A DNA stretch of 64,000 nucleotides. Source: Prochlorococcus sp. AG-409-M05. Its GTDB lineage: Bacteria; Cyanobacteriota; Cyanobacteriia; PCC-6307; Cyanobiaceae. Both the position numbers and the translations under genes were made by a program. The notes under the pieces were generated by a model. That model had not been told where the DNA came from. It made no database searches and saw nothing but the letters and a program-made list of their open reading frames with translations. Numbering within the stretch: position 1 is the first letter of the stretch; every line of letters begins with the position of its first letter. Where the stretch lies: the NCBI GenBank assembly GCA_003215435.1, contig QCKJ01000003.1, forward strand, positions 124,001 to 188,000, read 5' to 3'. Shown one piece after another: positions 56,421-59,071 of the stretch.

Positions 56421-56849
56421 ATGACTATTCAGCCCTACTACGAAACAATGTACATTCTCCGTCCGGATATCCCGGAGGAAGAAGTAGAGAGCCATCTAAA
56501 AAAATACAGCGAAATCCTCGTAAAAGAAGGTGCAGAGGTTCTCGATAACCAAATGAGAGGCAAAAGAAGACTTGCCTACACAATTTCAAAACACAAGGAA
56601 GGAATTTATGTCCAGCTAAGTCATCAAGGAGATGGTCAACAAGTATTTGCTCTAGAAAAAGCCATGCGGCTCAGTGAAGATGTGATTAGGTATCTCACAA
56701 TCAAGCAAGAAGGTCCACTACCAACACCTCGACCAACACCTTCTCCGAATCCAAGCGAACCAGCAACAGCTAAAGAAAATTCAGAGAATAAAGAAAAAGC
56801 AACTGACAATAATCCAGCCTCCGAACCTGCTAATGAAGAAAGCAACTAA
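56421..56849 (+). CDS. rpsF: 30S ribosomal protein S6 with low-complexity C-terminal extension
   Basis: 142 aa; [43 protein letters not shown]; Pro-rich then acidic tail. Confidence 0.95.
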
Positions 56850-58069
56850 ATAGGTTTATTTTTGTCATCTTTTTTCCTTAATGCTGACCAAAGTCGAGTT
56901 GGAAGTCCCCATACATAAATAAAGCCCTTTGCCGCTTGATGATCAAAAATATCGTCCCTTCCATAAGTAGCCATTTCTGATGAATAAAGGCTGGTATCAG
57001 ATCTTCTGCCAATAACAATACAATTTCCTTTATGTAATTTTAAGCGAACTGTGCCATTTACATCTACTTGAGTTCGCTCAAAGAAACCATCTATCGCTTC
57101 CTTTAAAGGACCAAACCAAAGGCCCTGATATACCAAATCGGCCCATTTAGATTCTAAATTTCTTTTCATGCTAAGAACATCTCCTGACAAAGTTAGGCTT
57201 TCCATTTCCTGGTGAGCATTAATAAGAAGAAGCAAGCCAGGAGTTTCATAAATCTCCCTGCTTTTAATACCTACGACACGATTCTCAATGATGTCAAGTC
57301 GACCAAAACCATGTCTACCAGCAATCTGATTTGCTTCCTTGATCATCTCTACTGGTTTTAAAAAAACACCATCTAGCGCAACTGGATTACCACAATCAAA
57401 AGTAATCTCGAGTTCTTCTCCCTCCTCAGGTGAGTCATCTATAGAAGCAGTCATTGAAAAGACATCTTCTAATGGTGGTGTCATCAGATCTTCAAGAGGA
57501 CCTGCCTCAACACTTCGACCCAGCAAATTAAGGTCTATCGAATAAGGAGACTTTTTACTCACTGGAGCAGGAATACCACAGCGCTCTCCATAAGCAATTG
57601 TCTCTTCTCTACTCATGCCCCATTCCCTAGCAGGCGTAAGGACCATTAAATCGGGCGCCAAAGAAGCAATTGCAATGTCAAATCGCACCTGATCATTCCC
57701 TTTCCCTGTACAGCCATGTGCAACTGCATCCGCCCCTTGATCACGAGCAACCTTTACTAATTGCTGTGCAATTAATGGCCTTGCAAGGGCTGTAGAAAGT
57801 GGATATTTCCCCTCATAAAGAGCATTGGCTCTAATCGCAGGAAACGCAAAGTTTTCTATAAATGGCTGAATCAAATCACCTACTAAAGAAACGGTTGCTC
57901 CTGAATCCAAAGCTTTTTGACGAATTAATTGCAGTTCATCTCCTTGCCCAAGATCTGCTGCAAACGTAATAACCTCTTCAACTCCCCATTCTTTCTTCAA
58001 AAAAGGGATACAAACACTAGTATCGACCCCACCTGAATAAGCAAGTACGACTTTTTTAGCTCGCCCCAT
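56846..58069 (-). CDS. argG: Argininosuccinate synthase
   Basis: 407 aa; [32 protein letters not shown]. Confidence 0.98.
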
Positions 58070-58219
58070 TAAATGATCTCATGCCCAACAAATATACGAT
58101 TTAACATTCAGAGTTGAAAGCTTATCCAAAGAGCGTAAAAAACGAATGAGAAACTTTTTGATATTCAAAGCACGCCATTACCATCTTGGATGAATCACAC
58201 GAAAAAGGCAATGCGTGTA

Positions 58220-58545
58220 AAAACCGATTGCACAAACATCAAAAGTGGAGGAACCTTTAATTAATCGAACACGGAGGCGTCCATGGACGACACGCCACCT
58301 GAGAATCTCTAGAAGCAGCTGACTGCGGCCCCTGCTCCAACAGTCTTAACCTAAAAGTGGGCTTTCGTCTGATGCGACATTTATAAGGTGCGTCAATTCA
58401 GTCGATACTCCTCTGCATCGTGATAGGTGCCCTTAAAGGAGAACAAGCTCAACACCTGGAACTCTGGCCCCAGGTGCCAATTTTCAGAAGCTTCGAAACT
58501 TTTCAAACCAATAAAAACCGACTCCATTAAGGGGTCGGTTTTTTT
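58220..58545 (+). ncRNA. Candidate non-coding RNA gene (boundaries approximate)
   Basis: Locally GC-rich, multi-hairpin, no substantial ORF; ends with a strong plus-strand rho-independent terminator although the flanking upstream gene (argG) is on the minus strand. Confidence 0.45.
58513..58545 (+). terminator. Rho-independent terminator (possibly bidirectional)
   Basis: ACCGACTCC-ATTAA-GGGGTCGGT stem-loop followed by T7. On plus the stem is complete with one U-G pair; on minus there is a C-A mismatch. Confidence 0.8.
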
Positions 58546-58747
58546 AATCAGAAGTAGAAAATCCCTCAAAAGCTATCCAAATTCCCAAAATAATTGAAGG
58601 GAAAAACAACAAAGTCAAAACCAGAAAAGGCCTAATAACAAAAGGGTCAGGATGATAAGAGCCCCAAACCCTTAAAGCAAAGCTCAACAAGGCTGCCAGG
58701 CCTAAAGAAAGAAACAATAAAAAAGACTTAGAAAACAAGGAGCGCAA
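58544..58747 (-). CDS. Hypothetical two-TM membrane protein
   Basis: 67 aa MRSLFSKSFLLFLSLGLAALLSFALRVWGSYHPDPFVIRPFLVLTLLFFPSIILGIWIAFEGFSTSD; stop abuts the terminator hairpin. Confidence 0.65.
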   Translation of the reverse strand: MRSLFSKSFLLFLSLGLAALLSFALRVWGSYHPDPFVIRPFLVLTLLFFPSIILGIWIAFEGFSTSD

Positions 58748-58795
58748 AAAGCAAGTTCATGGTCTATGTTGACTTATTGAATGAATTTGATAGCA

Positions 58796-59071
58796 ATGAG
58801 CGGCCTCAATAAGGTCAACCTAAGTTCCCTTGACGATATTAATCCTGCACTTACGCGGTATGGGAGAACAGAACCAGCCCCTGTACTTCCACTTCGGGAG
58901 GAACCAGACCTACTTTCATGGCTTGAAGCCAGTGGGCGTCTAGTAGCAGATGAAGAATCAGAGTCTCCGGAAATTAATACCGTTGAAGAGGAAGAACTAT
59001 CTGCTTTGATGGGAGAAAAAGAAGATTACAAAGGAGATGAGGAGCAAACCGAGGAGGAATGGGAAAACTGA
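58796..59071 (+). CDS. DUF3134-like acidic protein
   Basis: Likely start is the internal Met of ORF 58781..59071: MSGLNKVNLSSLDDINPALTRYGRTEPAPVLPLREEPDLLSWLEASGRL..., acidic tail. Confidence 0.7.
   Translation: MSGLNKVNLSSLDDINPALTRYGRTEPAPVLPLREEPDLLSWLEASGRLVADEESESPEINTVEEEELSALMGEKEDYKGDEEQTEEEWEN

Follow-up and report, generated by a model that had tools for sequence, protein, structure and literature searches.

A copy of the Yfr103 RNA family beside argG in Prochlorococcus carries a conserved, very probably translated micro-ORF

The window used for the analysis is a stretch of 64,000 nucleotides from Prochlorococcus sp. AG-409-M05. The interval studied here lies between argG and a gene for a 67-aa membrane protein. 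The features found at this locus are listed in Table 1. The GC enrichment reported for the interval in an earlier sequence-only reading was borne out, with 46-53% inside and ~33-40% on the flanks. More than 20 related genomes share the gene order beside the argG-linked RNA. No co-directional gene is present downstream of the RNA, which ends in the terminator and is followed by a gene on the opposite strand.

Table 1. Genes and RNA features in the argG-Yfr103 region of the window.
Feature	Position	Strand	Remarks
argG	56846..58069	-	Divergent neighbour
24-nt imperfect palindrome GCAATGCGTGTAAAAACCGATTGC	58208..58231	+	Upstream of predicted RNA start; probable regulator-binding site
Yfr103 family RNA	58264..58546	+	~283 nt; start inferred to within a few bases, end set by the terminator
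5' hairpin GGaGGCGT/ACGCCaCC	58273..58299 (58273-58280/58292-58299)	+	Holds Shine-Dalgarno sequence and start codon; consensus fold of 22 sequences
Shine-Dalgarno GGAGG of micro-ORF	58273..58277	+	Nearly all copies have it, 4-9 nt upstream of the start codon
Micro-ORF ATGGACGACACGCCACCTGAGAATCTCTAG, MDDTPPENL, 9 codons	58283..58312	+	156 of 166 copies have the ORF in frame
Core domain	58331..58474	+	Closing helix CCUG 58331-58334 / CAGG 58471-58474
Central hairpin	58365..58405 (58365-58378/58392-58405)	+	All ten pairs counted in alignment A1 change on both sides
Second hairpin CUCCU/AGGAG + GCAUC/GGUGC	58408..58441	+	Consensus fold; 99.6% of inner-stem cells paired
Terminator hairpin and T tail	58514..58546		Common to Yfr103 RNA (+) and convergent 67-aa gene (-)
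67-aa membrane protein gene	58544..58747	-	Convergent neighbour; homologues 45-64% identical, same place in relatives
96-aa conserved protein gene	58781..59071	+	Next neighbour; homologues 74-88% identical, same place

The extent of the RNA was derived from the family alignment, a covariance-model match of 155 bits and a spacing to the palindrome that agrees with the published one. The terminator named in the sequence-only reading is present; the argument for the plus strand drawn from it is weak, as the hairpin folds on both strands. Both hairpins pointed out in the same reading, GGCGT/ACGCC (58276-58280/58292-58296) and CACCTGG/CCAGGTG (58453-58459/58470-58476), are found in the sequence, but the second is not a conserved pairing. 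Folding energy was mildly below chance expectation, with z of ~ -2.1 for 58220-58546 on either strand and -2.5 for 58264-58546. Judged by BLASTN and covariance-model matches across Cyanobiaceae genomes, it is conservation, rather than folding, that exceeds chance.

Analysis of an alignment of 50 sequences revealed that 95.7% of pair cells are standard pairs and that 11 of 21 pairs change on both sides. Covariation of the hairpins across picocyanobacteria, proposed earlier as a check on a structured RNA, was thus observed: none of 500 shuffles reached the observed values for pairing or covariation, and pairing was destroyed when partners were slid by one to three columns. The core holds two near-invariant motifs, CUGCUCCAACAGUC (58332-58345) and GGCCCCAGG (58466-58474). 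Its closing helix is near-invariant as well, with a single compensatory change from C-G to U-A (in copy L022), and the second hairpin shows CUUC/GAAG partner changes in two copies (L017 and L062). CACCTGG/CCAGGTG was rejected as a conserved pairing since CAGG at 58471-58474 pairs with CCTG at 58331-58334, and the compensatory change in L022 would break that hairpin.

The upstream palindrome GCAATGCGTGTAAAAACCGATTGC is shared by 121 of the 166 copies, most of them marine, and this is its sole match in the window's genome at up to two mismatches. It fits the imperfect palindrome published for Yfr103 at -29 to -58 (PMC5069720), the exact offset depending on the inferred RNA start. An inverted repeat, GCACGCCATT (58170-58179) / AATGCGTGT (58210-58218), also occurs in the promoter region shared by argG and Yfr103, and its first half is likewise kept in relatives.

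Of 300 genomes from the window's family, 244 were matched by BLASTN of the interval. When 50 sequences were used to build a covariance model of the core, the model matched 348 of the 400 family genomes sampled, from 55 of 59 genera (Prochlorococcus, Synechococcus and Cyanobium among them), with one to nine copies in each matching genome. In a phylum-wide sample of 244 genomes 24 matched, all of them in the window's family. The window's genome has three copies, namely the window copy, C1:39997-40140 and C19:9511-9653; BLASTN alone recovered a second copy elsewhere in this genome, split in two pieces. Among the matches listed in a scan of named genomes were Prochlorococcus, Synechococcus, Cyanobium, Vulcanococcus, cyanobacterial MAGs and one proteobacterium-labelled MAG; the last match (L297, CAJXNF010000161.1) probably lies on a mis-binned picocyanobacterial contig. 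Searches of phages, plasmids and IMG/VR found zero Yfr103 copies, and a mobile-element or cyanophage-borne origin was dropped for this reason.

In high-light Prochlorococcus, a group absent from the published list of Yfr103 strains, each matching genome has a single divergent copy. The high-light copies examined (e.g. L138 and L140) keep the palindrome, the Shine-Dalgarno sequence and an ORF that mostly reads MIDSLPEISE. The copy in a freshwater genome has the same layout, with the ORF MEETPPGQISGVC. Genera were presumed to be of high-light or freshwater type, judging in part by the type of copy. This extension of the family includes complete cultured genomes and is open to testing. Several genomes (L055, L056, L072/L012) hold two copies that are identical across the whole RNA and beyond, and in G055 ~660 identical bases are shared by two copies ~10.9 kb apart, which suggests a recent duplication or a gene conversion event. 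At one further locus (L144, G074:C1:2268060-2269115) the RNA is present in three tandem copies with 450-base spacing.

Exactly seven covariance-model matches were found in a genome of 2,510,659 bp, which we take to be that of Synechococcus CC9605. Homologues occur in SS120, MIT9313, CC9311 (the genome being assigned to this strain by presumption) and RCC307, all of which are on the published Yfr103 list, and in WH7803. Near a Yfr103 copy in the genome taken as CC9311, the Rfam Cyano-1 RNA was found at L051 2455-2519 (-). Yfr103 is described as an RNA of 290-328 nt with strongly conserved structure and a function called enigmatic; it has seven paralogs in CC9605, accounts for 55% of the CC9605 5'-end (mdRNA-Seq) reads in the Red Sea, and is expressed at very high levels in CC9605 and MIT9313 (PMC5069720). 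The RNA in the window measures ~283 nt from its inferred start, against the 290-328 nt published. It is on the agreements in copy number, strains, structure and palindrome that the RNA of the interval is identified as a Yfr103 copy. The earlier suggestion of an independent, structured plus-strand RNA of the Yfr type therefore stands in its main part. Its alternative of a new RNA does not, as this transcript family has already been published (PMC5069720), and 'non-coding' is probably wrong owing to a conserved, Shine-Dalgarno-led micro-ORF at the 5' end.

The sequence-only reading saw no ORF of meaningful size and overlooked this conserved 9-codon ORF at 58283-58312. A Shine-Dalgarno sequence, a start codon and an ORF are present at the 5' end of the RNA in 156 of 166 distinct copies. 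The ORFs follow the pattern M-(T)-x-[D/E]-T-P-P-E... and span ~8 to 14 codons, 115 of the 156 having 13 or 14. Start codons, as scored, are ATG (146 ORFs), TTG (9) and GTG (1). The start codon shifts between M-x-D and M-T-x-D forms with the frame retained. At least two acidic residues occur at positions 2-8 in 146 of the 156 ORFs, and Pro-Pro is present in the same number; the two paralogs in the window's genome encode MVDTPPEY and MDDSPPEV. There is no mention of an ORF in the main text of the Yfr103 paper (PMC5069720). No report of a Yfr103 peptide was found in the open-access literature searched. Hence, the micro-ORF and the spread of the family to high-light and freshwater lineages appear to be new with respect to the accessible literature.

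Because picking ORFs by a protein motif would bias the codon test, all 166 copies were aligned as nucleotides and tested without selection on protein sequence. In codons 3-6, parsimony changes at the first, second and third positions numbered 26, 18 and 106. The binomial p value of this skew (~1e-20) is indicative only, as the copies are related and changes on the tree are not fully independent. In a protein-filtered set the changes by codon position were 4/4/86, and Pro6 underwent 30 codon changes and no residue change. Over the first six aligned codons, the pN/pS ratio was 0.35 for the ORF frame, against 1.86 and 1.51 for the two alternative frames; the tail of the ORF gave 1.02. The predominance of third-position changes indicates that selection acts on the peptide sequence of the micro-ORF, and hence that the RNA is very probably translated.

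Exceptions to this pattern were also identified. About ten copies have no recognisable ORF or a broken one. In two identical CC9605 copies the ORF is broken by a one-base deletion that shifts the frame, and in three other CC9605 copies (L134, L224, L226) the subtype MRDDGPTEQ...EA[DS], which has no Pro-Pro, replaces DTPPE. Five copies (L195, L204, L207, L213, L177), from genomes that look freshwater, have a related core and no recognisable micro-ORF. Most members of the window's clade have an early stop, caused by a one-base deletion located 3' of the D-T-P-P-E codons. The tail-truncating deletion and the copies with no ORF suggest that the beginning of the ORF is more important than its end, and that not every copy needs one.

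Overall, we consider it likely that the argG-linked Yfr103 is a stand-alone, dual-function RNA with its own regulated promoter, a terminator shared with the neighbouring gene and a micro-ORF that is very probably translated. As the structured core is conserved separately from the micro-ORF, a dual-function RNA is the best interpretation of the molecule. The serious rival is that the transcript serves chiefly as an mRNA, encoding a functional micropeptide 8-14 residues long that acts as a free peptide, with the remaining RNA stabilising the message. Strong purifying selection on D-T-P-P and the uniform length of most ORFs are in agreement with it, and we regard it as possible though distinctly less probable. 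Several results do not fit: the C-terminal half lacks residue-level constraint (pN/pS ~1.0), the window's clade stops the ORF early after a 1-nt deletion, and the best-conserved part is the downstream core, with invariant motifs and covarying stems that would be superfluous in a message.

A purely regulatory or structural ncRNA, in which the ORF-like segment is a part of the 5' hairpin or an untranslated docking site for the 30S subunit, is improbable. The segment does pair within the hairpin at 58273-58299, the ORF is missing from some copies, and Yfr103 was published as an ncRNA (PMC5069720). A hairpin, however, cannot explain the third-position skew (26/18/106), a Pro6 kept through 30 codon changes or a moving start codon with the frame kept.

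A known RNA of another kind was also considered in the sequence-only reading. Rfam gave chance-level matches only for the interval, by gathering and E-value thresholds, and no family was assigned to it; no Rfam match overlaps the RNA at 14 further Yfr103 loci. A divergent 6S RNA or tmRNA would agree with an abundant, structured RNA of 200-300 nt throughout the family, but this has next to no probability. For 6S there is no match in the region and its own Rfam model matches another locus in 8/8 relatives, and in the MIT9313 and SS120 genomes the 6S genes fall on the published Yfr7 coordinates. In the window's genome itself 6S gave no match at E 0.001; this assembly is 88% complete and the relatives have 6S. 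For tmRNA, cyano_tmRNA lies at a separate locus of the same genome (G000:C2:80683-80978). Equally negligible is the reading of the interval as the argG 5' UTR only, the terminator serving no gene other than the minus-strand one: judged by its sequence the terminator does work on either strand, but comparative data already contradict this account, as many members lie at argG-less sites and keep the arrangement of palindrome, ORF and core, strand included.

Within the dual-function reading, the mechanism we favour, tentatively, is translation that acts in cis. The Shine-Dalgarno sequence within the 5' hairpin would start the micro-ORF MDDTPPENL, and the ribosome would open the hairpin. The acidic, double-proline start of the nascent chain may then slow or abort the ribosome at this hairpin, so that folding, stability or availability of the RNA would be coupled to its translation state. 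Constraint on the first codons, an unconstrained tail and the analogy with mgtQ of Salmonella favour such a nascent-chain or ribosome effect over a free peptide. The lack of a downstream gene to control speaks against a leader-peptide switch, and the RNA itself would be the controlled target, unlike in mgtQ. A pure proline-stall reading is weakened by the three CC9605 copies with DDGPTE and no Pro-Pro. More speculatively, Yfr103 may be a stand-alone translation sensor, in which the fate of the ribosome on a pausing or destabilising micro-ORF would determine how the attached RNA domain folds and acts. If true, a sensor ORF would lie inside a trans-acting RNA rather than a leader, in a highly abundant picocyanobacterial transcript. 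The conserved, apparently translated micro-ORF provides a concrete handle on Yfr103 function, and suggests that a simple 'non-coding' annotation of this RNA is inadvisable.

Comparison with published Yfr103 (PMC5069720) revealed agreement in length class, multi-copy nature, structure, upstream palindrome, strain distribution and the seven CC9605 copies; the differences are the copies in high-light Prochlorococcus and freshwater Cyanobium-type genomes and the conserved micro-ORF. 6S RNA (Yfr7/SsaA) is likewise an abundant structured cyanobacterial RNA, but differs in locus, sequence and copy number and is present separately. The dual-function sRNAs SgrS/SgrT, SR1/SR1P and RNAIII are likewise structured RNAs in which a short ORF close to the 5' end is translated, translation being predicted in the case of Yfr103. 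In contrast to these, the Yfr103 ORF is far shorter (8-14 codons) with constraint limited to approximately codons 2-7, and Yfr103 is multi-copy in most genomes and has no known target. The mgtQ ORF of Salmonella is 8 aa long and comes with AGGAGG, acidic residues and a stem-loop, which is switched by the Asp and Glu codons of the ORF, codons that also destabilise the ribosome (PMC8092293). Yfr103 resembles it in a strong Shine-Dalgarno sequence, a very short ORF, early acidic residues and proline, and a sequence that also forms a stem-loop. The mgtQ/MgtL-type trait of acidic, proline-rich first codons after a strong Shine-Dalgarno sequence was thus found, whereas the Yfr103 transcript at the window locus has no downstream gene for such an ORF to control. 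The gene that follows mgtQ is under its control; Yfr103, by contrast, runs into a terminator, and Pro-Pro is conserved in Yfr103.
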